From: Ruegeria sp. R14_0
GTDB lineage: Bacteria; Pseudomonadota; Alphaproteobacteria; Rhodobacterales; Rhodobacteraceae
DNA length: 64,000 nucleotides
Reading direction: 5' to 3'
Assembly: GCF_017743975.1 (NCBI RefSeq)
Contig: NZ_JAGHRC010000002.1
Span: 434,001-498,000 of the forward strand
The translations under genes and the position numbers were made by a program. How positions within the stretch are numbered: the stretch's first letter is position 1; every line of letters starts with the position of its first letter. Below the pieces are notes generated by a model. That model worked only from the letters and a program-made list of their open reading frames with translations, was not told where the DNA came from and did not search any database. This document shows, one piece after another, positions 30,605 to 42,095 of this stretch.

Positions 30605-31336
30605 GTGAGCATTCCGCGGCTTCTGGTGGTGGATGACGACCCGGACATGCGGTCGATGATGACTCAACTGATGCAAAAGAACGGGTTCATCGCCCTGCCC
30701 GCCAGCACCGAGCGTGAAATCCGTTCGCACTTGTCCAACGGCCGGATCGACCTGATCCTGCTGGATGTGATGCTGGGGGATGAGAACGGCATCGACATTT
30801 GCGCCCGGCTGCGGCGCGAACAGGATGTGCCGATCATCCTGGTCTCGGCCCTGTCCGCAGACCATCAGCGCATGGCCGGTTATGAGGTTGGGGCGGATGA
30901 CTACATCGCCAAGCCGTTCAACCCGCAACTGATGCTGGCCCGTATTCGCGCGGTGATGCAACGCGCGCGGCGGTCGTCGTCGCTGGCCTATCGTCGACGA
31001 ACCCGCACCTTCCGCTTTGACGGTTGGGTCTATAACGGAAAGCGCGACGACCTACACTCCCCCGAAGGCTATCTGGTGTCTCTGTCGCAACGGGAAACCG
31101 CCCTGCTCAAGGTGCTGCTGGCCAATCCGCATATCCCGCTGACCCGAGAAGAGATCGTCGCCGCGCTGGATGTGACCGGCGACAGCGACAAGCCCGAGGC
31201 GCAGGGGCGCGCCATCGACATGCTGGTGGGTCGCCTGCGGTCCAAGATTGAGGCGAACCCGAAAGATCCGCAAATGCTGCGCACGGAACGCGGGGTCGGT
31301 TATATCTTTGCCGCTGACATCGCGGTCGAAGAATGA
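30605..31336 (+). CDS. OmpR-family response regulator
   Basis: This is a 243-aa regulator with GTG start preceded by GGGAGGAC. The receiver domain has the acidic pocket D10-D12, phospho-acceptor D54 (LLDVMLG), conserved S81 and K103 (IAKPFNP). A winged-helix DNA-binding domain follows (SLSQRETALLKVLLANPHIPLTREEI, GRAIDMLVGRLRSKIE, RTERGVGYIF). It is coupled to the downstream histidine kinase by ATGA overlap and is divergent from the sugar ABC operon, its probable target. Confidence 0.94.
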   Translation: MSIPRLLVVDDDPDMRSMMTQLMQKNGFIALPASTEREIRSHLSNGRIDLILLDVMLGDENGIDICARLRREQDVPIILVSALSADHQRMAGYEVGADDYIAKPFNPQLMLARIRAVMQRARRSSSLAYRRRTRTFRFDGWVYNGKRDDLHSPEGYLVSLSQRETALLKVLLANPHIPLTREEIVAALDVTGDSDKPEAQGRAIDMLVGRLRSKIEANPKDPQMLRTERGVGYIFAADIAVEE

Positions 31337-32775
31337 CCCTGCGACTGCGCAATCTGGGATTGCTGTGGGCGTTGTCGGCTTTTGCCGCGGGGCTTGTTTC
31401 AGCCGGGCTGTGGTTCGCATCGGCGCGTGCCTGGAATGATTACCTGATCCAATCCTTCGTCGCCGGATTCACGGTGTACGAAGAGTTGCGCACCGGCATG
31501 GCCCCGTCCGAGGGTCTTTCGATCACACGCTTGTCGCCGAAAGATGCCGCGCTGGCCGAAAATGGCGAATTCCAGCGCCTGCCCGGGTTCTCGGACCGCC
31601 GGTTTGTCACCAACCTGTCGATCCTGACGGACAGTTCGTCGCCGCTCAGCGGGCGCGAGCTGACGGTCGCGATCCTGTCTGACCGGCTGATCTATCCTGT
31701 GTCAGACATCGTCTCGGGCATTGATCAAACCGGTCCCGAGAAGATGGGCAACCTGACCCGGTTGTTGGCCACCTATTGCAGCGAACCGATCCTGATCGCA
31801 AAATTCGGGCGTGAAGCTTGGTATCAGGTGGATGGGACGCGGATCTGGGGCTGTCAGGCCGCACCGATGGATTTGCGCCTGCCCGCCGTTCTGTTGGGGA
31901 TTGTCGCGCTTGCGATCATCCTGTCTTCGGTCAGCAACGTTTCGGATACCTTCACCCGGTTCGCGCACGCCCTACGCCAACGGCAGCGGTTGGGCGGACC
32001 GGAAAGCTATGAGGCTGATGGCCCGGATGAGCTGCGCAATATCGTTTCAGCCGTGAACGCCCATCTGGATGCCGAGCGCGCTCAGCTGGAAAAACGCGCG
32101 ACGGTCTTGTCCGGCGTCAGCCACGATCTTGGCACTCCCGCGACCCGCGTGCGCCTGCGTGCGGCCCTGATCGCTGATGACGAACTGCGCGAAAAGCTTG
32201 AGGCGGACGTGGACCAGATGACCGGCATGATCGAAAGCGTCCTGACCTACACGCGGTCCGAACTGGATGTCGAGGAACCACAACAGATCTCCCTGACCTC
32301 TCTGGTCGAGTCGTTGGTCGCCGACTATCAGGACATGGACCTGCCCGTGACCCTGAAACAGACCGATCCCGTCGCGGTCGAAGGGGCCACATCCGTCTTT
32401 ATGTCCCGGCGTGGTCATGGTCAGCTTACCGAGACGCGCCGCGTATTGGTCGTAGCGCGGCCGATTTCTCTGCGGCGCGCGCTGACCAACCTGATCGACA
32501 ACGCCCTGAAATACGGGCGTCATGCCGAGGTCCAGTTGGAGACTGACGCGACCACGGCCACCATCACGGTCGAGGATAAGGGCACTGACCTTTCCGTCTC
32601 CGATATCGAAAACCTGATGGCCCCGTTTCGGCGCGGATCGAACACCGGATCATCGGACGGATTCGGCTTGGGCCTGACAATTGCCTCCACCGTAGCCGAG
32701 CAACATGGCGGAGAAATGCGCTTTGAGGCCGGAGACTGCGGCCTGCGCGCCTGTCTGCAGATCGCTCGGCAGTGA
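31333..32775 (+). CDS. Sensor histidine kinase
   Basis: This 480-aa inner-membrane kinase has two membrane segments (about 5-28 and 184-202) enclosing a periplasmic sensor of about 155 residues with two Cys (ATYCSE and WGCQAA). A HAMP-like linker follows, then the phospho-acceptor H264 in GVSHDLGTPATRV and the ATPase domain with N box NLIDNALKYG and G2 box GFGLGLTIA. The G1 box reads DKGTDLS, where the usual second glycine is replaced. It should sense a periplasmic signal, perhaps sugar or sugar-bound binding protein, for the coupled response regulator. It ends 4 bases from fliP, which is on the other strand. Confidence 0.93.
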   Translation: MTLRLRNLGLLWALSAFAAGLVSAGLWFASARAWNDYLIQSFVAGFTVYEELRTGMAPSEGLSITRLSPKDAALAENGEFQRLPGFSDRRFVTNLSILTDSSSPLSGRELTVAILSDRLIYPVSDIVSGIDQTGPEKMGNLTRLLATYCSEPILIAKFGREAWYQVDGTRIWGCQAAPMDLRLPAVLLGIVALAIILSSVSNVSDTFTRFAHALRQRQRLGGPESYEADGPDELRNIVSAVNAHLDAERAQLEKRATVLSGVSHDLGTPATRVRLRAALIADDELREKLEADVDQMTGMIESVLTYTRSELDVEEPQQISLTSLVESLVADYQDMDLPVTLKQTDPVAVEGATSVFMSRRGHGQLTETRRVLVVARPISLRRALTNLIDNALKYGRHAEVQLETDATTATITVEDKGTDLSVSDIENLMAPFRRGSNTGSSDGFGLGLTIASTVAEQHGGEMRFEAGDCGLRACLQIARQ

Positions 32776-32779
32776 GTAC

Positions 32780-33511
32780 TCAGGTCGCATAACTGCGCAC
32801 AAGTGCGCGGGCGATCAACGACCAGCCATCGGCAATGACAAAAAACGCCAGCTTGAACGGCAGCGACACGATGGCCGGTGGCACCATCATCATGCCCATC
32901 GACATCAAGACCGCGGCAACCACAAGATCGATAATCAGAAAGGGCAGGAACACCAGAAACCCAATCTGAAAGGCACGCGCGATTTCCGACAGCATGAAGG
33001 ACGGCATCAGGATCGACAGCGGCGCATCGGGCGACAGAGGGATAGCATCCCCTTCGGGGCGCAAAGCGGCCATGGCGTGAAACGTATCAGGGTCCAGACG
33101 AGCCGCCATGAAATCGCGAAACGGTTGCACGGCGCGTTCCAAAGCGGGCTCAACCTCCATCGTCTCATTGACCATTGGGCGGATGCCAGCTGTCCAGGCT
33201 TCGGTAAAAACCGGATCCATGATGAAATAGGTCAGGAACAGAGCAAGGCTGACGATCAGCATATTCGGCGGAGACTGCTGCAAGCCGATCCCCTGCCGCA
33301 AGATGGCCAAAACGGTAATCAAAAACGGAAAACAGGTGATCATGATCGCAAGCCCGGGCGCGAGGCTGAGCACCGTAATCAACAGGATCAGCTGGATCGT
33401 GCGCGCCGAGATCGAGCCGCCCTCGCCCAGCGAGATCGACACCTCTTGTGCCGAAGCCAGAGACGGGGTCAACGCGGCAAGCACGACCACCAGCAACAGT
33501 AGCCGGTGCAT
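32780..33511 (-). CDS. fliP: Flagellar export apparatus protein FliP
   Basis: This 243-aa core component of the flagellar type III export gate has a signal-peptide-like start (MHRLLLLVVVLAALTPSLASA), the FliP signatures ITCFPFLITVLAILRQGIGLQQSPPNMLIVSLALFLTYF and MPSFMLSEI, and four membrane segments. FliP forms the export pore with FliQ and FliR, neither encoded here. The start overlaps the fliN stop as TGATG. Confidence 0.95.
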   Translation of the reverse strand: MHRLLLLVVVLAALTPSLASAQEVSISLGEGGSISARTIQLILLITVLSLAPGLAIMITCFPFLITVLAILRQGIGLQQSPPNMLIVSLALFLTYFIMDPVFTEAWTAGIRPMVNETMEVEPALERAVQPFRDFMAARLDPDTFHAMAALRPEGDAIPLSPDAPLSILMPSFMLSEIARAFQIGFLVFLPFLIIDLVVAAVLMSMGMMMVPPAIVSLPFKLAFFVIADGWSLIARALVRSYAT

Positions 33512-33798
33512 CAGCCGATACCGTTTTGAAGATCAGCGATTTCGGTCAGGCGCACGGCAAGTTGACCCGCCTGCTCTCCCTCCATCTCTTCCAATAGGCC
33601 GCGCGCGACAAGTTGATCCCCAACATAAAGGTCCACCGGGTCTTCGATGCGTTTGTCCAGCGTCAAAACGGCGTTTTCGCCCATGCTTAGCAGATCGCGG
33701 ATCAGCGGGCGCGCTCGACCCACCGACACGGTGACTTCGATCGGAACGGCCTCAAACGGGTTGGCCTTTTCGGTTCTCGGGGTCTGCGGATCACTCAT
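33511..33798 (-). CDS. fliN: Flagellar motor switch protein FliN (short form)
   Basis: This 95-aa SpoA-domain protein has VPIEVTVSVGRARPLIRDLLSMGENAVLTLDKRIEDPVDLYVGDQLVARGLL, the C-ring segment that forms the base of the switch complex with FliM and FliG. It is near the minimal FliN size, without a long N-terminal extension. It overlaps fliH upstream by 8 bp and fliP downstream by 1 base. Confidence 0.93.
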   Translation of the reverse strand: MSDPQTPRTEKANPFEAVPIEVTVSVGRARPLIRDLLSMGENAVLTLDKRIEDPVDLYVGDQLVARGLLEEMEGEQAGQLAVRLTEIADLQNGIG

Positions 33799-34387
33799 GG
33801 TTCACTGCCTCTTTTGCCTGAAAAACATACGCCTGAAAGGCTTGATCGATCGCAGCCAGCACTCCGCTGCAATCCACTTCGCGCTGGGAAATCCCCACCT
33901 TGAGCCGCGCCTGCCCAAGGTCGAGCGAGGCGTCTTCGACAACCTGCACCGGTGAGGATATTGCGTTAGGAATCATGCCTTCCACTTCGGCCGCGCGTCC
34001 CTCGGGTACAAAAACCCGCATCGGCTGTCCGATCTGCGTGCGGGCCATATCAGTGAGTTCTTCCGCGAGGCGGGCAGCGAACCCCCGGTCCATCGTTTCG
34101 GGTAAAACCACCTTTGTTAGACTCTGAAACATGGGTTCAAGGGACTGGGCCATCCAGTGAACAGCCTCATGGTAAGTGAAAGACATATCCTCGAGCGATC
34201 TGGCCAGATCGTCGGAAACCTGCCCCCGGCTGCTCTCTTGCGCTTGGGTGGCGTCCTCCCAGCCTGCACTGTAGCCCTGATCAAACGAGGCAAGCCTTTG
34301 TTCTTCCAGTGCGTCCTCATCCAGGACATGCAACTGACCCCCATTGGCCTGCAGGGTGAAATCTTCAAGAAGATGGGCAATCGACAT
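33791..34387 (-). CDS. fliH: Flagellar assembly protein FliH-like
   Basis: The ATG at 34387, which overlaps the fliF stop as TGATG, gives 198 aa. The N-terminal half is acidic and helical (FDQGYSAGWEDATQAQ, the FliH-type Gly-containing start); the C-terminal half resembles the stator-like domain of FliH/HrpE (ADDS replaced by DASLDLGQARLKVGISQREVDCS). FliH holds the FliI ATPase at the export gate; fliI is not in the window. Sequence conservation of FliH is low, so the call rests partly on position between fliF and fliN. Confidence 0.8.
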   Translation of the reverse strand: MSIAHLLEDFTLQANGGQLHVLDEDALEEQRLASFDQGYSAGWEDATQAQESSRGQVSDDLARSLEDMSFTYHEAVHWMAQSLEPMFQSLTKVVLPETMDRGFAARLAEELTDMARTQIGQPMRVFVPEGRAAEVEGMIPNAISSPVQVVEDASLDLGQARLKVGISQREVDCSGVLAAIDQAFQAYVFQAKEAVNHE

Positions 34388-35982
34388 CACACACGCTCCT
34401 CACCTTCTTCCAGCCAGCTGCGCAGAATCTCGACCGTTTCCTCCTGCTTGTCGCCAATCATCGCGCGCAGCCGATCCACCGGGTCGGCCCCTGTACCCGT
34501 CGCCAAAGCTGGCACAGTCCCGCCTGGCACCTGCCCGGGCAGAGAGGTGAATTCTCCGCTGTCTTCGGTTGCGATTTCTCCGGTCAGGATTGTGTCAGGC
34601 TCGGGGGTCGCGCCCGCCGGCAACAGGGCCGGGGCGGCGGCCGCCTGTGTCAGGATGGGGCGGACGACAAATAGGCCAAGCACCAGAGATACAAGCGCCA
34701 GAACCGCCATCTGGATCAGCGACATCACATCGAAATGTACCTTCTGCCACAGCGATGCCGTTGCCAGCGTCCCCTGAGGCGCGACAGCGGGCAGGTCCAG
34801 CGACTTCAGCGTGATCACATCCCCGCGTTCTGCATCGAACCCAACGGCCGACGCGACCAGCTCTTGCAAGGCATCCAGTTCAGCCTGAGGCATAGGGGTA
34901 AAGGTTTCCACCCCATCCGCCCCGACCGACCGGGTTCCGTTTACCAACACTGCAACGGTCAGTCGTTTGATAGCGCCGGGACCGTTATGTACCTCAAGTT
35001 CAGTTTCTGAGACTTCATAGTTGATCCGCTCACGCGTCTGCGTCGCGTTCGAATTGGACTCGTCTCCGCCTGCGCCGTCGCCGTCTGGCAGGTTCGACGC
35101 AACCGTTACGTCCCCCGACTGATTGCGAGCACTATCAGAACGCTCTTCAACGTCGGTGCTGATGGCTACGCGACTATTGGGATCAAAACGCCGTTCGCGG
35201 ATCGATTCGGTCTTTGTGACCGTATCGACGCTGACTTCGACCACGGCATTTCCTGTGCCCACACGCGCCTCGACCAGACGCAGCACCCGCTCCCGCAACT
35301 GGCGGGATTTATCGTCCGCGGTATCTGAAGCCACCGGGTTGTCCTGCGCCCCGATCACCGCGCCATTCGAGTCGATCACAGTGACATTTTCCGGCGCCAG
35401 GCCACTGACAGCCGATGAAACCAGGAACCGGATCGCCTTGGCCTGATCTGCCGTGATGTCCGCGCCGGACGCAACCAGGTAGACCGAGGCAGTCGGGGCG
35501 ACGCTGCGTTGAAATGGATTCGACGATCCGTTGGCAATATGGACTCGAGCCTGGCTGACATGAGGGCTGCCGACGATGGTTCGGGCCAGCTCGCCTTCCT
35601 TGGCGCGCCAATAGGCGGCGTCGAACATCTGCGACGTGGTGCCGAAACCGCTGAGAGAATCCAGCAGTTCATACCCTCTGTTTCCATTGGCGGGCAGGCC
35701 CTCGCTGGCAAGGGTCATACGCAGCTCATCCCGCTGCGCACCGGGAACATAGATCGAGCCCCCACGAATCTCGTACTGCACACCGCGTTGATCCAGCGAG
35801 CGGACGATGTCTCCCGCTGCGCCGCTTTCCAGTCCGGCATAAAGCAGGGTCATCGACGGCGCGGTCACCAGCCGCGACATCGCGAGTATCCCCAGGAAAA
35901 CCAGTACTCCTGCACCGGCGACGATGATTTGTTTACGCCTGTCCAAATTTGCCCAGACAGTTCCAATCTGCTGCACGCTCAC
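34387..35982 (-). CDS. fliF: Flagellar MS-ring protein FliF
   Basis: This 531-aa inner-membrane protein has a membrane segment at about 19-40 (IIVAGAGVLVFLGILAMSRL), the YscJ/FliF ring-building region (MTLLYAGLESGAAGDIVRSLDQRGVQYEI, MFDAAYWRAKEGELARTI, RVHIA), the FliF C domain, and a second membrane segment at about 445-465 before the cytoplasmic tail that binds FliG. It forms the base on which the flagellum is assembled. It is first of the minus-strand operon fliF-fliH-fliN-fliP and divergent from fliL across 113 bases. Confidence 0.95.
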   Translation of the reverse strand: MSVQQIGTVWANLDRRKQIIVAGAGVLVFLGILAMSRLVTAPSMTLLYAGLESGAAGDIVRSLDQRGVQYEIRGGSIYVPGAQRDELRMTLASEGLPANGNRGYELLDSLSGFGTTSQMFDAAYWRAKEGELARTIVGSPHVSQARVHIANGSSNPFQRSVAPTASVYLVASGADITADQAKAIRFLVSSAVSGLAPENVTVIDSNGAVIGAQDNPVASDTADDKSRQLRERVLRLVEARVGTGNAVVEVSVDTVTKTESIRERRFDPNSRVAISTDVEERSDSARNQSGDVTVASNLPDGDGAGGDESNSNATQTRERINYEVSETELEVHNGPGAIKRLTVAVLVNGTRSVGADGVETFTPMPQAELDALQELVASAVGFDAERGDVITLKSLDLPAVAPQGTLATASLWQKVHFDVMSLIQMAVLALVSLVLGLFVVRPILTQAAAAPALLPAGATPEPDTILTGEIATEDSGEFTSLPGQVPGGTVPALATGTGADPVDRLRAMIGDKQEETVEILRSWLEEGEERV

Positions 35983-36095
35983 CTCCGACTCGCCGACATT
36001 CTGCCCGGCGCATCCCTTGTTTGGACGATTGCCCTTAACAATCGGTTAGTCCCTGCCAGGTTATGACGATTGCAGATTGAAGGAATGAGGACGTC

Positions 36096-36593
36096 ATGAC
36101 CGACGCGACTGCAGAACAGGCAGAAGTCCCGGAAAAATCTGGGAAAAAGGGAATGATCATAGGGGTGATTCTGGCAATTGCCGGCGCTGCGGGCGGGTAT
36201 TTCCTGACCACGTCAGGCCTGTTGCCGTTTGGTGGGAAATCTGCAGCGACGGAGGCTGCGGACAAGGGCGCGGACACGCCCGCCAAGGCCCTCCCAAAGG
36301 TCAGCTTTGTCGATCTCGCCCCAGTAATTGTCTCTGTCGACACTGGCGATTCGCGGCATTTGAAGTTCCACGCCCAGCTTGAGGTGAACGCGCAATACCA
36401 GGCGGATGTGGAGAAAATGAAACCGCGAATCATGGACGTGTTGAACGGCTATCTGCGCGCGATCGAGGTGTCGGACCTTGAGGATTCGCTCGCACTCATG
36501 CGCATCCGCGGGCACCTGCTGCGGCGTATCGAGATCGTCGTCGGTGAGGGTCGCGTGCGCGACGTGCTCGTCATGGAATTTGTACTGAACTAG
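36096..36593 (+). CDS. fliL: Flagellar basal-body-associated protein FliL
   Basis: This 165-aa single-pass protein has a cytoplasmic tail, a membrane segment at about 23-42 (MIIGVILAIAGAAGGYFLTT) and a periplasmic FliL domain (HLKFHAQLEVNAQYQADVEKMKPRIMDVLNGYL, RIEIVVGEGRVRDVLVMEF). FliL surrounds the MotAB stator and raises torque or stability. It leads the plus-strand operon fliL-DUF6468-motE-motA. Confidence 0.93.
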   Translation: MTDATAEQAEVPEKSGKKGMIIGVILAIAGAAGGYFLTTSGLLPFGGKSAATEAADKGADTPAKALPKVSFVDLAPVIVSVDTGDSRHLKFHAQLEVNAQYQADVEKMKPRIMDVLNGYLRAIEVSDLEDSLALMRIRGHLLRRIEIVVGEGRVRDVLVMEFVLN

Positions 36594-36602
36594 GAGGCGA
36601 AA

Positions 36603-37073
36603 TTGGAGCTGATTGCGGATATTTTGCTGGTTGCCGGCGCGTTGGGTGCGGGTCTTTACTGTTTCGTTCTGTCGCGGCGGTTGAAACGCTTTACCGACCT
36701 TGAAAAAGGCGTGGGCGGCGCGGTGGCGGTCTTATCCTCCCAAGCCGAAGAGCTGAAAAAGTCGCTTGATTCAGCCCGGGACGCCTCGGACCAGTCCGGT
36801 GCGACACTGAACGCGTTGACGGAACGCGCTGAATCCGTTGCTCAGCGGCTTGAGCTAATGATGGCTTCTCTGCACGACGTCGTGCCGCAAGACGAAACGG
36901 CCGCTGAGGTTTCGAAAGAACCAGAATCGGCACCAGAGGCTGTATCAGCGCGCCCGCAGCCCAGCGCCGAACCCGAGGGCGAGGGCGAGGATGAACCTGT
37001 CGCCGAACCTTTGGCAAAGAAACCCGGTGGCCTGATGTTCCTGCGCCACAACCGCAGTGAGGCCACGGCATGA
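36603..37073 (+). CDS. DUF6468-like membrane protein of the flagellar cluster
   Basis: A TTG start at 36603 follows AGGAGGCGAAA and gives 156 aa. One membrane segment (IADILLVAGALGAGLYCFVLS, 3-23) is followed by a coiled-coil region (LEKGVGGAVAVLSSQAEELKKSLDSARDAS, RAESVAQRLELMM) and an acidic, Pro/Glu-rich tail. This matches the alphaproteobacterial flagellar family I know as DUF6468. The role is unproven; position between fliL and motE suggests a stator-associated function. It overlaps motE as ATGA. Confidence 0.82.
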   Translation: MELIADILLVAGALGAGLYCFVLSRRLKRFTDLEKGVGGAVAVLSSQAEELKKSLDSARDASDQSGATLNALTERAESVAQRLELMMASLHDVVPQDETAAEVSKEPESAPEAVSARPQPSAEPEGEGEDEPVAEPLAKKPGGLMFLRHNRSEATA

Positions 37074-37645
37074 CGCGGAAGTCTGCGGACAATCGTCCAA
37101 AAAGCGGTGTTCTTGCGGTTATCGCGATGCTGATGATCGGCTCAGCGGCGATCCGGGTCGGATTCGAGGCCGGTCCGGCCTTGGCCAAAAGCGCCGAGCC
37201 CGAGCCGGCAGAACCTGCCGGTCGCCAACCCCAGCTGCCCGGAGCACAGGAACTGCTGACAGAGTTGCTGCGCCGGGAAGACGCCCTCAAAAAACGAGAG
37301 GCGGCTGTGGTGGACAGAGAAAAGGCACTGGAGATTGCCGATCAGGCCATCGAGACGCGATTGGTTGCGCTGCAAGAGGCCGAGGAGTCTTTGCGGCAAA
37401 CCCTGGCGTTCGCGGAAAAGGCGGCTGAGACGGATCTGACACGTCTGACCGACGTGTATCAGAGCATGAAGCCAAAAGATGCCGCCGCACTTTTTGAAAC
37501 AATGGACCCCGGTTTCGCAGCTGGTTTTCTGTCCCGCATGCCGCCGGACGCCGCCGCAGGTGTCCTGGCCGGGCTAAGCCCCGAGGCAGCCTATACAATC
37601 AGTGTCATCATGGCCGGCCGAAACGCCGCAGCCCCACAGGAATGA
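37070..37645 (+). CDS. motE: MotE-family flagellar motor chaperone
   Basis: This 191-aa protein has a membrane anchor or signal segment (GVLAVIAMLMIGSAAIRVGF), a long coiled coil (about 65-125, ELLTELLRREDALKKREAAVVDREKALEIADQ) and a C-terminal MgtE-N-like helical domain (TDVYQSMKPKDAAALFETMDPGFAAGFLSRMPPDAAAGVLAGL). This is the layout of MotE, the periplasmic chaperone of the MotC stator protein in rhizobia. It precedes motA by 46 bases, fitting a role in stator assembly. Confidence 0.85.
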   Translation: MTRKSADNRPKSGVLAVIAMLMIGSAAIRVGFEAGPALAKSAEPEPAEPAGRQPQLPGAQELLTELLRREDALKKREAAVVDREKALEIADQAIETRLVALQEAEESLRQTLAFAEKAAETDLTRLTDVYQSMKPKDAAALFETMDPGFAAGFLSRMPPDAAAGVLAGLSPEAAYTISVIMAGRNAAAPQE

Positions 37646-37691
37646 TCGGCATGTTTATCACTTTCGCATCTGACATTGCAGGAGACCGCCC

Positions 37692-38561
37692 ATGATCGGA
37701 ATTATCGGAATCGTCGTCATCTTCGCCATGGTCTTCGGCGGCTACCTGGCTGCTGGTGGCAAGATGACGATCATTTTGAAATCGCTCCCGTTCGAGATGA
37801 TGATGATTGGCGGGGCCGCTGTTGGTGCGTTTCTGATCAGCAATGACATGAGCGCGGTCAAACATACACTCAAGGACATGGGCAAAGTCTTCAAAGGCCC
37901 AAAGTGGAAGCCAGAAGACTACCGCGACCTGCTTTGCCTTTTGTTTTCGCTCATTCGCATCGCCAAGGCCAATCCGGTCGAGGTGGAACAGCATATCGAA
38001 GATCCCGAAAACTCATCACTGTTCGCAGCCTACCCAAAGATCAAGGCGGATAAGGAAGCCGTTGATCTGATCTGCGACACGATGCGTTCGGCGTCGATGA
38101 ATTATGACGACCCGCATCAGGTGGAAGAGGTGCTGGAAAAGCGGATGGAGGCGAACTTCCATCACGCGATGCACTCGAGCCATGCCTTGCAAACGGTGGC
38201 AGACGGCCTGCCTGCGCTTGGGATCGTGGCCGCGGTTCTCGGCGTTATCAAGACAATGGGGTCTATTGACCAGCCACCAGAAGTTTTGGGCAAACTGATC
38301 GGCGGTGCTTTGGTCGGGACGTTCCTTGGCGTTTTCCTGGCCTACGGTCTTGTTGGTCCCTTTGCGGGCAAACTGAAAGCCGTGGTCGAAGAAGACAACC
38401 ATTTCTATCAATTGATCAAAGAGGTTCTGGTCGCAAACCTGCACAACCACAATGCAGCCATGTGTATCGAAGTTGGTCGCCAGAACACACCAACACACAA
38501 CCGGCCCGGTTTCTCCGAGCTTGAAGAAGCGCTGAAAGAACTCAAACAGGCTGCGGCATGA
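37692..38561 (+). CDS. motA: Flagellar motor stator protein MotA
   Basis: This is a 289-aa protein with four membrane segments and MotA signatures: the opening GIIGIVVIFAMVFGGYLAAGG, the cytoplasmic loop EDPENSSLFAAYPKIKADKEAVDLICDTMRS, and TVADGLPALGIVAAVLGVIKTMGSIDQPPEVLGKLIGGALVGTFLGVFLAYG, which contains the conserved prolines of the ion channel. It needs MotB, which is not in the window. A good GCAGGAGACC site precedes the ATG. It overlaps the 710-aa gene as ATGA. Confidence 0.95.
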   Translation: MIGIIGIVVIFAMVFGGYLAAGGKMTIILKSLPFEMMMIGGAAVGAFLISNDMSAVKHTLKDMGKVFKGPKWKPEDYRDLLCLLFSLIRIAKANPVEVEQHIEDPENSSLFAAYPKIKADKEAVDLICDTMRSASMNYDDPHQVEEVLEKRMEANFHHAMHSSHALQTVADGLPALGIVAAVLGVIKTMGSIDQPPEVLGKLIGGALVGTFLGVFLAYGLVGPFAGKLKAVVEEDNHFYQLIKEVLVANLHNHNAAMCIEVGRQNTPTHNRPGFSELEEALKELKQAAA

Positions 38562-40690
38562 TACGGACCATCTTCCTTGCAGGGGCGTTAAGCGCGGCGG
38601 CTTCGCTTGCGCAGGCGCGGGACGTGACCGTGCGCTCGGGTGAACATGACGGCTACACCCGTCTGGTCGCCCAGGTTCCGACCGGCACCGACTGGGTACT
38701 TTCACACAAAAAGAACGCGGCACGCCTTAGCGTTGAACTGGATGAGGTCACATTTGATACTCGATCCGTGTTCCAACGTTTGACGCAGGGTCGATTGGCG
38801 ACAATTGCACAATCGGAGCCCGGCTCTGCCCTTGAGATGCAGTTCGGGTGCGACTGCGTTGCCTCTGCCTTTTTGTACAAAGAAACAATGATCGTGGTGG
38901 ATATCGCACCGGGCACAACGCTTCCTCCGCTCAGCCCGGATATTCCGCCGCAAGTCTTGCCGAAAGCGGAGAAGGTAAAAGACCCGTTGCTGGCACAGAA
39001 CCTGAAACAGCTAGAGCTGCCGCTGCTCAATCTCAGCGCTCAACGCTATGAAAACCAACTGTCAACGCTTCTGCTGCGAGGGGCGGATCGGGAAATAGTG
39101 GATTTGCAGTTGGCACCGGTCGGACCACGACCAACTGTCGCTGCAAATGGACCATTCATCCCATCGGATTTGAATGCGAACGTAAATGTGACATCAGTGT
39201 TGGACGGTTTGAACGAGCTGTTGGGGCCCTCACTTCCGCAGCTTGAAAAGCGCCCGCCCTGCATTTCAAACGCCGATCTTGGGTTTGAGACCTGGGCCGG
39301 AACCGGCCCGTTCCCGGAACAAGTCGCGTCACTGCGCAGTTCGATGTTTCAAGAGTTTGACCACATCGACAAAAAGAAGGTTCTCAAACTGGCGCAATTA
39401 TATGCCTATTCCGGCTTTGGTGCAGAGGCGCTGCAGGCGCTGGACCTGCTGGGCAACCAAACCCCGGGTGCGGATCAGATTGCGGCCATCGCCAGGTATC
39501 TGGACGGCACGCCAGCGCCAAAGCCAAACCCGTTCGCAGACCTTCAACGCTGCGAAAGTGATGCCGCGTTATGGGCGGTCTTGACCGAAGGCAAATTGAC
39601 GGAAGAGGCCGACCTGCAAGTGATTGAGCAGTCTTTTGTGCGGCTGCCGGACCATTTGCGTCGCCATGTTGGACCGACTCTGGCAGAGATTCTGACGGAT
39701 GCGGATCATCTGGAGGGCGCGCGGCGTGTGCTGCGTTCGGTCGACCGTGTCGAAACCGACGCCAGCGCCGATACGTCCCAAGCAAAGGCCAAAGTTGCTG
39801 CCGCCGAAGGCGATGGGCCCAAGTCCGAGGCCTTTTTAAACCAGGTAATCGAGTCCTCGGGCGCCGAGCTTGAAGCACCACTGGCGCTTGCGCGTCTGGT
39901 CGACAAGCGCTGGTCGGACCGCGGATCCGTTTCCCCGCAGGAGCTTGAACTTGCAGCATCCTATATCCACGAATTTCATCGATCAGACATTGGCCCCCAG
40001 ATGCTGCAAACACAGATCGTCGCGCTTAGCCTAGGGCATGAGTTTGATCAGGCAATGGATCTATTGCAGGCGCATGACACTGGAGGATCCGAGGCACTGA
40101 ATCGTGTAACCCTTGTCCTGGCCGAGCGGGCCGACGACGCGACATTCCTGCGTCGCGCGTTAACGCTGACGCCATCGCAGAAACAGGCGCTGTCAACAGA
40201 TACCGCAGTTGCTGCGGCCGAAAGACTGGCCGCGCTGGGTTTTGCCAATGCCGCGTTGGAACTGGCCAGCCGGTCGCAGGACAGGGCGCGGCGCTTAGAC
40301 CGTGCCAGGATTCGCGCGCAGGCCGCCCTGCTTCAGGGTCGACCGCGTCAGGCAATGCTGGAACTTGCAGATGATCCCTCAGACGCGGCTCAAGTGTTGC
40401 GGGGACAGGCGCTGCAGATGACGGAAGATTATGAGGCAACAGCCAAACTTTTGCGAGAGATCGGACAGGGCGAAAAAGCCGACCGGTATGTATGGCTGGC
40501 AGATCGCCCTGAAACGGTGGACGAAGCAAGTGGGTCAAAGTTCTCGGCCATTCGCCAAACAACGCAGAACCTCTCTGCCCCGCCCGAACGAACACCCGAC
40601 AAACCCCTTGCCGATGCGCAGAGCCTGTTAGACGACAGCGCACAAACACGAGAACGCATTTTGGACTTGCTGGCGAAGGTAACCCCTTGA
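38558..40690 (+). CDS. Large secreted helical-repeat protein of the flagellar cluster, function unknown
   Basis: This 710-aa protein starts with a signal peptide (MIRTIFLAGALSAAASLAQA). Residues 22-125 form a beta-rich region with a rhythm like an AMIN domain (GYTRLVAQVPTGTDWVLSHK, ARLSVELDEVTFDT, MIVVDIAPG), including a CDC pair. From about 280 to the end it is almost all helical, with TPR-like spacing (LKLAQLYAYSGFGAEALQALDLLG; ALGFANAALELASRSQDRARRLDRARIRAQAALLQGRPRQAMLELADD). It is coupled to motA by a 4-bp overlap. A periplasmic role with the stator, comparable to rhizobial MotC, is inference. No terminator was found after it. Confidence 0.8.
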   Translation: MIRTIFLAGALSAAASLAQARDVTVRSGEHDGYTRLVAQVPTGTDWVLSHKKNAARLSVELDEVTFDTRSVFQRLTQGRLATIAQSEPGSALEMQFGCDCVASAFLYKETMIVVDIAPGTTLPPLSPDIPPQVLPKAEKVKDPLLAQNLKQLELPLLNLSAQRYENQLSTLLLRGADREIVDLQLAPVGPRPTVAANGPFIPSDLNANVNVTSVLDGLNELLGPSLPQLEKRPPCISNADLGFETWAGTGPFPEQVASLRSSMFQEFDHIDKKKVLKLAQLYAYSGFGAEALQALDLLGNQTPGADQIAAIARYLDGTPAPKPNPFADLQRCESDAALWAVLTEGKLTEEADLQVIEQSFVRLPDHLRRHVGPTLAEILTDADHLEGARRVLRSVDRVETDASADTSQAKAKVAAAEGDGPKSEAFLNQVIESSGAELEAPLALARLVDKRWSDRGSVSPQELELAASYIHEFHRSDIGPQMLQTQIVALSLGHEFDQAMDLLQAHDTGGSEALNRVTLVLAERADDATFLRRALTLTPSQKQALSTDTAVAAAERLAALGFANAALELASRSQDRARRLDRARIRAQAALLQGRPRQAMLELADDPSDAAQVLRGQALQMTEDYEATAKLLREIGQGEKADRYVWLADRPETVDEASGSKFSAIRQTTQNLSAPPERTPDKPLADAQSLLDDSAQTRERILDLLAKVTP

Positions 40691-40751
40691 CAGGCGCGCT
40701 AAACCGGCGGCCAGTGTGCAGTCGCCGCACCAGTCCTGACTGACTTTACCT

Positions 40752-42095
40752 TTACGGATCGAACACCAAAGGCAACAAGTCAGAAATCTTGGAGCCGGGT
40801 TTGGTCCAACCCAGAATGGCATCCCGGATCGCATCCGCACGGTCCGGTCCGACAACAGGCGCAGAAAAGTCCGTGTACTTTGCGACCACATCCTCTTTGC
40901 TGAACGGGCCTTCCGGCCCTCCGCGCGCGTGAATATCGCCAGATGTCAAGCTGCGCCCATCAGTCGTTTCCAATGTGACATCGGCCCATCGCCCTTTGGG
41001 AAAACGGGTACTATGACGCGCATCCTCGCGGACGTGTATGCGCGGCAGCATAGCCGCCACAGACGGATCAGACAGGCCGGTGCCCGAGATATGCTCAACC
41101 CCGATCCGGCCATAGATCGCCTGAACTGCCACCGCAAAGGGCAGCGAATACTGTGCCTGAGATGTCGTCTCAGGCATCCCACCGTAAAGACAGGCAGCTT
41201 CGTGAAAGCTGTTGATGTGTAGGGATCGGATCTGATCATGAGTCAGGTCATGCTCGATCATCACCGCACGCACACCGTCGATTGCCGCATGCGCCCAACG
41301 GCATATGGGGTAAGGTTTCACATATTGATGCTCGACCTGCCAGAATTGGCCAAGATCGGCCCAGAACGCGGCGACATCATCAGCTTCGATGGTGATTGCT
41401 GGTGCTCCGGTGAACCCACGCTCGGCCAAAATCGCCGAGGAGATACCGACCATAGCGCCCCAGCCTGATCCGTCATGCAACATGGTCGGGTTCGCGATTT
41501 CGCGCATCATCTGGCTGCGCGGGCCATGATATTCGGCGATCCCCAGTGCCTGTCGAAACTGCCCCGCCGAATGACCACGCAAACGCGCGGCCATGGCGAC
41601 TACGCCTAGCGCATTCCACGCGCCGGACGTGTGATAGTCACTGACCGATGCGTGCAGCGACATGCCCGCCCGCCCCGCGACCTCGTAACCGGTGATCACG
41701 GCCGCCAGTGCGTCGGGGCCAGATACATCCGGGCAATGCGCACCCAACGCGATGAGCGCTGGCAGCACAACAACGCCGATATGACCCTTAGTTGGGTTGT
41801 AACCGTCATGCCCATCCAGATTGTCGGTTTGGGTCGCGGCCGCAAAGGCAGCCCCTGCCATACTGACAGGTCGACCGTCAAACATCATCGGAACGCTATA
41901 GCCCGCGTCAGAACTGGCATAAAGCAAGGCCGCCGTACCGCGAGCAATCACGCCAGCTTCCATCGGACCGGAGGCGATGAGGATGCCCATTGTGTCCAGC
42001 ATCATCAGGGCTGCAGCTTCTTTTGCGCTATCTGGCATCATGTCCGCCGGACAGTTCAGTGCGAACTCTGCGACGCGTTCGAAAGTTCCGCTCAT
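40752..42095 (-). CDS. MmgE/PrpD-family protein
   Basis: This 447-aa protein has MmgE/PrpD landmarks: MLDTMGILIASGPMEAG, the region NLDGHDGYNPTKGHIGVVVLPALIALG, HTSGAWNALGVVAMAARLRG and QYVKPYPICRWAHAAIDGV. Named members are 2-methylcitrate dehydratase and cis-aconitate decarboxylase; many others, including those near dehydrogenases like this one, have unknown substrates. It is coupled by ATGA to the GcvT-domain dehydrogenase upstream, which suggests a catabolic role connected to that enzyme or shared regulation only. Confidence 0.88.
   Translation of the reverse strand: MSGTFERVAEFALNCPADMMPDSAKEAAALMMLDTMGILIASGPMEAGVIARGTAALLYASSDAGYSVPMMFDGRPVSMAGAAFAAATQTDNLDGHDGYNPTKGHIGVVVLPALIALGAHCPDVSGPDALAAVITGYEVAGRAGMSLHASVSDYHTSGAWNALGVVAMAARLRGHSAGQFRQALGIAEYHGPRSQMMREIANPTMLHDGSGWGAMVGISSAILAERGFTGAPAITIEADDVAAFWADLGQFWQVEHQYVKPYPICRWAHAAIDGVRAVMIEHDLTHDQIRSLHINSFHEAACLYGGMPETTSQAQYSLPFAVAVQAIYGRIGVEHISGTGLSDPSVAAMLPRIHVREDARHSTRFPKGRWADVTLETTDGRSLTSGDIHARGGPEGPFSKEDVVAKYTDFSAPVVGPDRADAIRDAILGWTKPGSKISDLLPLVFDP

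Follow-up and report, generated by a model that had tools for sequence, protein, structure and literature searches.

The stretch of DNA analysed here, 64,000 nucleotides of Ruegeria sp. R14_0 (contig NZ_JAGHRC010000002.1, positions 434,001 to 498,000 of the forward strand; hereafter the window), contains a flagellar operon in the order fliL-pflI-motE-motA that is closed by an open reading frame (ORF) for a secreted protein of 710 amino acids (aa). This ORF is an orthologue of motK, as the operon order, the AMIN-like head, the TPR-like body and a direct alignment agree. MotK was named and described in 2024 in Cereibacter sphaeroides (RSWS8N_12065, UniProt Q3IY86 as cited; PMC10954123), where it is reported to be periplasmic, to be required for rotation and to bind MotE and MotB2; its description as an AMIN-like head joined to a TPR-like body and the gene order fliL-pflI-motE-motA-motK were published in the same work. 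The protein is real and conserved, and its kind had already been described. A first-pass annotation, made from the sequence alone, had called it novel and of unknown function; both terms are overtaken by the 2024 description of MotK, which gives the same AMIN and TPR architecture, and by the requirement of CP4, its positional counterpart in Phaeobacter inhibens, for motility. The parts of the gene and its product are the following (pLDDT, predicted local distance difference test; rows are those of the cysteine alignment described below).

38558..40690, plus strand: motK, 710 aa, aligned to the MotK of genome G046 (652 aa) over 573 columns with 28% identity, E 7e-41
38558..38617, plus strand: Sec signal peptide (residues 1-20, AQA at its end), as judged by eye
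38618..38911, plus strand: AMIN-like head, residues 21-118 (separate model of residues 21-125, pLDDT 64)
38849..38857, plus strand: C98-D99-C100, no row having only one of the two cysteines
38912..39307, plus strand: mostly disordered linker, residues 119-250 (pLDDT 26-35 in ten-residue blocks over 121-250)
39260..39262, plus strand: C235, a cysteine in 83 of 84 rows and a gap in one
39311..40681, plus strand: TPR-like helical body, residues 252-708, alpha-alpha hairpins with matches to TPR superhelices
39551..39553, plus strand: C332, a cysteine in 84 of 84 rows

The alignment to MotK is a single pairwise comparison, and genome G046 is presumably C. sphaeroides or a very near relative, judging from published lengths and the MotE cysteine: its MotE (185 aa) and MotK (652 aa) have the lengths published for C. 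sphaeroides, and the single MotE cysteine, residue 49, equals the published mature position 20 plus a 29-residue signal peptide. The same genome gave two FlhA matches, and its MotE is 49% identical to that of the window. Family searches with the Ruegeria protein itself were less productive. Pfam and NCBIfam scans returned no family above its cut-off, a PDB sequence search with the protein alone gave no significant match, and neither TPR_19 nor the AMIN-like family PF24837 matched it at 0.1, which is why the head is named AMIN-like; among 44 MotK members, TPR_19 matched 11 (best 5.8e-7) and PF24837 nine (best 0.014). A DSBA match (0.22) was taken as chance. A PDB profile search found nine sequences, all of them either coatomer epsilon or TPR proteins of consensus or designed type (best 0.0068), and PflA was not matched by sequence. 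Besides, no relative turned up in a scan of viral contigs, and a scan of genome contigs, sensitive to close relatives only, matched two Ruegeria. The lack of a family above its cut-off would favour an unrelated secreted protein that adjoins motA by chance, but the position, the overlap with motA and the sequence are conserved across the family and the alignment to MotK is highly significant, leaving such a coincidence a negligible probability.

The genes upstream, on which the comparison of operon order rests, are listed below together with the overlap.

36035..36049, plus strand: CtrA-like half-site pair TTAA-N7-TTAG upstream of fliL, one mismatch to TTAA-N7-TTAA
36096..36593, plus strand: fliL, the operon's first gene (PF03748, 3.3e-12)
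36603..37073, plus strand: pflI-like gene at the CP2 position, DUF6468 (PF20072, 3.4e-5, under the curated cut-off)
37070..37645, plus strand: motE, homologue of the E-ring protein of the FlgY/FlbB kind (PF03448 MgtE_N, 9.3e-6)
37692..38561, plus strand: motA, stator protein (TIGR03818, 9e-110, above cut-off)
38558..38561, plus strand: ATGA overlap of the motA stop and the motK start, from the sequence

The ATG of motK sits within the stop codon of motA, in agreement with the translational coupling of the ORF at 38558-40690 to motA claimed by the first-pass annotation, and the matches to fliL, DUF6468, motE and motA upstream bear out its claim of an operon shared with motE. All 44 motK genes used, a non-random sample drawn mostly from the best-scoring genomes, have motA immediately upstream; counting the window's own gene, start and stop overlap in 40 of them (39 ATGA, one TTGA) and do not in four. 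The DUF6468 gene occupies the position held by pflI in the C. sphaeroides operon, and the motE product matched the FlbB model NF047368 at 1.8e-6, far under that model's cut-off. Taking the CtrA consensus to be TTAA-N7-TTAA, we counted 3 matches with one mismatch in the window versus 3.87 expected by chance, so that the position before fliL alone is suggestive of a CtrA site. In C. sphaeroides, a CtrA site has been reported upstream of fliL2 (PMC10954123). Comparison with 22 loci of other genomes (L001, L002, L033-L052) found matches to fliP, fliN, fliH, fliF, fliL, pflI, motE, motA and motK together in 20; in the loci L039 and L041, motA and motK adjoin flhA and MotE is located elsewhere in the genome. 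The flhA gene of the window's genome lies on a different contig. The block fliP-fliF/fliL-motK (window positions 30605-42095) is flanked by the same genes here and in two Ruegeria loci, namely a response regulator gene and a gene that we take to be MmgE/PrpD-like.

Among the 296 Rhodobacteraceae genomes searched, the MotK profile matched 209 and a single-protein query 206; the profile counts lean on an alignment in which 42 of 44 rows were drawn from these same genomes, that of the window among them. MotE was matched in 221 genomes and FlhA in 235; all three occurred together in 205 and none of the three in 59. The first-pass annotation had named wide occurrence without motE or motA as an observation that would speak against it; this refutation did not come about, since 205 of the 209 MotK-positive genomes carry MotE and FlhA as well. 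Three genomes had MotK and FlhA without MotE (G035, G051 and G056), and in G035 and G056 the contig ends beside the gene; only G213 had a MotK match alone, which was weak (1.3e-6), with again no MotE match in a repeat search. The 16 genomes with MotE and no MotK match included eight that were looked at individually. In G104 the contig ends just past motA, and in G227 (L132) motE is spread over two frames, neither motA nor motK was matched in the 16 kilobases (kb) fetched and no FlhA was matched in the genome, which we read as a decaying flagellar cluster. G197 (L131 8109-9935) encodes a 608-aa secreted ORF that overlaps motA through ATGA and has a CxC motif (95, 97), C237 and C335; its cysteines lie near MotK spacing without a significant match to the MotK profile, and it is perhaps a strongly diverged MotK. 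A HMMER search with filters off found no ORF better than E 0.16 in L126-L132; the same setting recovered a MotK-like ORF in L070 that had been missed with filters on.

The Roseobacter counterpart of MotK appears to have been studied under another name. In Phaeobacter inhibens, loss of CP4 (PGA1_c35690) abolishes motility, with FliC, FlgK and FlgE remaining extracellular within a reduced protein set (PMC12363192). Mutants at the CP2 and CP3 positions (pflI and motE) are reported to have only FlgH extracellular, with no flagella seen (PMC12363192), and the motE phenotypes of Phaeobacter and C. sphaeroides differ. From gene order, CP2-CP4 would be PflI, MotE and MotK; the main text of PMC12363192 contains neither "MotK" nor "MotE", and the equation is apparently not drawn there. 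According to the same work, CP1-4 are confined to the fla1 clusters of Rhodobacterales, which does not fit the longer relatives of MotK matched in other Alphaproteobacteria, discussed below.

Structure prediction supports the division of the protein into head, linker and body. The AlphaFold2 model of the whole protein places a helix at residues 2-16, within the predicted signal peptide, beta strands between 21 and 118, a linker at 119-250 that is mostly disordered and has two short helices, and helical hairpins at 252-708, with body blocks at pLDDT 67-85 over residues 441-640. Its best Foldseek match among 350,542 chains was 9hmf_K (773 residues, E 4.2e-5), from a Campylobacter jejuni motor scaffold, which we take to be PflA because its chain length fits that of PflA; the other matches listed were further proteins with TPR, PPR or similar helical repeats. 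The entry 9HMF is a scaffold model of the C. jejuni motor (PMC12222027). In a second structural comparison 9hmf_K was missing from the 50 matches listed, and TPR superhelices reached Z 11-13 over about residues 420-649, a range that helical repeats can reach through their common arrangement. The head modelled alone (residues 21-125) gave a clearer result. Only five of the 999 chains aligned to it scored Z 8 or more: three pieces of PilQ (3jc8_Qa, 4av2, 4aqz), AmiC (4bin, Z 9.9) and the N-terminal domain of PflA (9leq_A, Z 8.2, root-mean-square deviation (rmsd) 3.0, 91 aligned), 3jc8_Qa being assigned to PilQ by chain name and 9leq_A to PflA by length and numbering. The PilQ pieces are presumably AMIN domains, in line with the comparison made in PMC11870540. 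The head is AMIN-like, by its fold and by its sequence-profile relation to accepted AMIN domains, and the structure matches agree with a PflA-like architecture of AMIN-like head and TPR superhelix, on a weak whole model. The parts that the first-pass annotation had listed (signal peptide, AMIN-like head, CDC pair and TPR-like helical body) were all recovered.

Considering these results, we think it probable that motK is the Rhodobacterales member of the PflA-like kind of periplasmic flagellar scaffold, a spoke linking the stators to the MotE E-ring. The PflA spokes of the C. jejuni motor are described as radiating from the FlgY E-ring to the PflB rim and the stators; their TPR end is the inner one, and head and linker lie on the outer side (PMC12222027, PMC11870540). 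A review regards MotE as a FlgY homologue and MotK as PflA-like (PMC13023049), a term also applied to MotK in a preprint. Exported via Sec, MotK would dock through its TPR superhelix on the MotE E-ring around the MS-ring, by extension from PflA and FlgY, and its linker and AMIN-like head would reach outward to the stator ring, contacting MotB and possibly peptidoglycan. Units of MotA/B would thereby be recruited and kept active, and loss of MotK would be expected to leave an assembled but paralysed flagellum. The immotile CP4 mutant of Phaeobacter, with its extracellular FliC, FlgK and FlgE, speaks for this reading. We infer the spoke geometry, its orientation and the contact with peptidoglycan from these comparisons. 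The periplasmic adaptor of stator or peptidoglycan, acting with MotE, that the first-pass annotation had put forward agrees with the published C. sphaeroides data as far as stator and MotE are concerned, and its contact with peptidoglycan is only proposed.

Several observations weigh against a spoke of this kind. In C. sphaeroides, MotK is reported to be localised without MotE and not without MotA2/MotB2, and MotE is localised without MotK (PMC10954123), so that MotK may dock chiefly at the stators and less at the E-ring. The Phaeobacter mutants at CP2 and CP3, in which no flagella were seen and only FlgH was extracellular, and the reduced protein set of the CP4 mutant make a role in assembly possible. 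Five genomes with divergent MotE (G006, G124, G150, G157 and G274; loci L126-L130), probably of fla2 type from their FlhA and MotE scores, gave no MotK match in the 16-20 kb fetched, and a MotK-like ORF outside the family (L064) is without the AMIN-like head, so the head is not universal. The whole model is of low confidence (mean pLDDT 56.6, pTM, the predicted template modelling (TM) score, 0.34), and its match to 9hmf_K (TM 0.18, rmsd 59) carries little weight alone. Moreover, Foldseek gave no match to the head model at E 0.001 or better, and the next match to the head after PflA was an unrelated small heat shock protein whose Z of 7.8 is barely under the 8.2 of PflA.

In an alignment of 84 rows from 83 genes (L113 repeats L051), all four MotK cysteines are present in 77 rows, and six rows have lost both C98 and C100, with none having lost only one; the C98-D-C100 pair is kept in 43 of the 44 members. 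Since C98 and C100 are kept or lost together and C235 and C332 are almost always kept, conservation points to C98-C100 and C235-C332 as possible pairs. On a tree, however, the six losses can be explained by only two changes, and the case for pairing is therefore lighter than the count suggests. The MotE of the window (37070-37645) has no cysteine, and neither do 11 of the 21 MotE proteins compared. Cysteine mutants of MotE are reported to be unstable in C. sphaeroides and Sinorhizobium meliloti (PMC10954123). In a different role, MotK would be mainly a periplasmic chaperone or stabiliser of MotE, mirroring MotE as MotC chaperone in S. meliloti, and not a lasting part of the motor. Because the window's MotE lacks the cysteine found in those two species it may lean more on MotK, as a chaperone would imply. 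It is also reported that MotE is degraded without MotK in C. sphaeroides (PMC10954123). Set against this, MotK-sfGFP is found at the flagellated pole, its localisation depends on MotA2/MotB2 and MotK binds MotB2 (PMC10954123), and a head with a long TPR body resembles a structural spoke; we therefore judge a mainly chaperoning role very unlikely.

The AMIN-like head raises the question of the cell wall. Four matches of the MotK profile in other Alphaproteobacteria, of 404-488 aa (E 9.8e-10 to 2.7e-6), are amidases and not MotK-like; all four contain AMIN PF11741 and Amidase_3 above cut-off and have the motif RxGxHxxxTRxV in common with the MotK head. The AMIN link of MotK, published from structure models, is thus also visible in sequence profiles. 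This motif and the likeness of the head to the AMIN domain of AmiC would suit a protein that is chiefly a peptidoglycan anchor, whose head would hold the cell wall and open the MotB channel, the protein not serving as a spoke at the E-ring, as proposed by the authors of the MotK paper (PMC10954123). An AMIN fold alone, however, does not demonstrate peptidoglycan binding, since the comparable head of PflA, with its linker, goes with binding of PflB (PMC11870540, PMC12222027) and PilQ carries its AMIN domains in a secretin. In PilQ, that secretin belongs to a pilus. We consider a role confined to anchoring unlikely and retain the spoke between MotE and the stators, a scaffold that, by analogy with the role of CC_2058 (FssB) in Caulobacter, one might guess also carries load signals.

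The family is not restricted to the Roseobacter motor to which the first-pass annotation had assigned it, being present in the 209 Rhodobacteraceae genomes noted above and having longer relatives elsewhere in the class. Of 289 Alphaproteobacteria genomes, 129 were matched by the MotK profile, and 125 of these do not belong to Rhodobacteraceae. Thirteen high-scoring regions outside the family were fetched, and in all 13 the matching ORF lies inside a cluster with a MotE match. Among the 12 ORFs first found, the head region was matched in 11 (nine of them twice) and part of the body in all 12, the L075 match being weak. As called, 12 of the 13 ORFs have lengths of 978-1355 aa, with some starts uncertain where they overlap the preceding gene; ten of 12 longer relatives have no cysteine or cysteines only within the first 22 residues, and the other two, L064 and L071, have several, some or all of which fall in N-terminal extensions that are doubtful. 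These long proteins are probably of the CC_2058 kind, and sequence now seems to support a relation to CC_2058-like proteins that had been published from structure alone. L064 (5289-6908, minus strand) has the Rhodobacterales order fliL-pflI-motE-motA-MotK-like, and its headless ORF, counted as 539 aa from an ATGA start at the motA stop, comprises a signal peptide and the body; it perhaps represents a step towards MotC-like proteins.

In nine of the 13 motE clusters outside the family (L065, L066, L068, L069, L071, L072, L073, L074 and L076), two small MotB-like genes stand in tandem just before the MotK-like gene. Two MotB-like models were built from four of the nine pairs, and in the four aligned pairs the second protein keeps the aspartate of the membrane segment, which we take to be the MotB channel aspartate, and the first does not. 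No account of such a tandem pair before a MotK-like gene was present among the literature matches listed. As a tentative reading, the Alphaproteobacteria may have had an ancestral motor spoke of about 1000-1350 aa carrying two AMIN-like domains, of which MotK would be the Rhodobacterales version, shortened and braced by disulfides. The long version would be made with a tandem MotB-like pair, only one of which has the channel aspartate, and MotK with MotA. We hold this to be possible rather than probable, the small number of changes behind the six cysteine losses weakening it slightly. If true, translation would couple the spoke to stator subunits in either branch, and a two-part MotB stator, organised by a spoke on the MotE ring, would be found in many Alphaproteobacteria.

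Altogether, the additions made here are modest: the equation of CP4 with MotK, support from sequence for a family spanning the class, and a cysteine pattern that can be tested. They join an unexplained Roseobacter motility gene to a characterised stator factor, and connect MotK, by sequence profile and beyond predicted fold, to large proteins in the motE clusters of other Alphaproteobacteria. The idea of an E-ring with spokes thereby becomes testable in an easily grown marine model, with concrete predictions on which cysteines pair and how a cysteine-free MotE dimerises.

MotK of C. sphaeroides is one of the closest named systems, with the same gene order, signal peptide, AMIN-like head and TPR-like body, and, in the G046 protein, the same GCxC motif with two further cysteines. 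It differs in length (652 versus 710 aa), residues of about 567-683 of the Ruegeria protein being unaligned to the G046 MotK, which is proline-rich there, and the MotE of the window's genome lacks the cysteine of its C. sphaeroides counterpart. CP4 of Phaeobacter inhibens likewise follows motA in the same cluster and is needed for motility, a match made by gene order only. CC_2058 (FssB) of Caulobacter crescentus is a secreted TPR protein downstream of the MotE homologue CC_2059, a Mot- mutant has been reported for it, and it is needed for a stator-dependent surface-sensing pathway (PMC7885107); its likeness to MotK has been published as structural only. MotC of S. meliloti is a periplasmic TPR partner of MotE but has no AMIN domain according to a review (PMC13023049), and we set it beside MotK by description only. 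PflA of C. jejuni, whose motor also has PflB, PflC and PflD (PMC12222027), differs in showing no sequence match to MotK in the PDB profile search, and appears to share with it the AMIN-like head, flexible linker and TPR superhelix in a protein that partners the E-ring protein FlgY.

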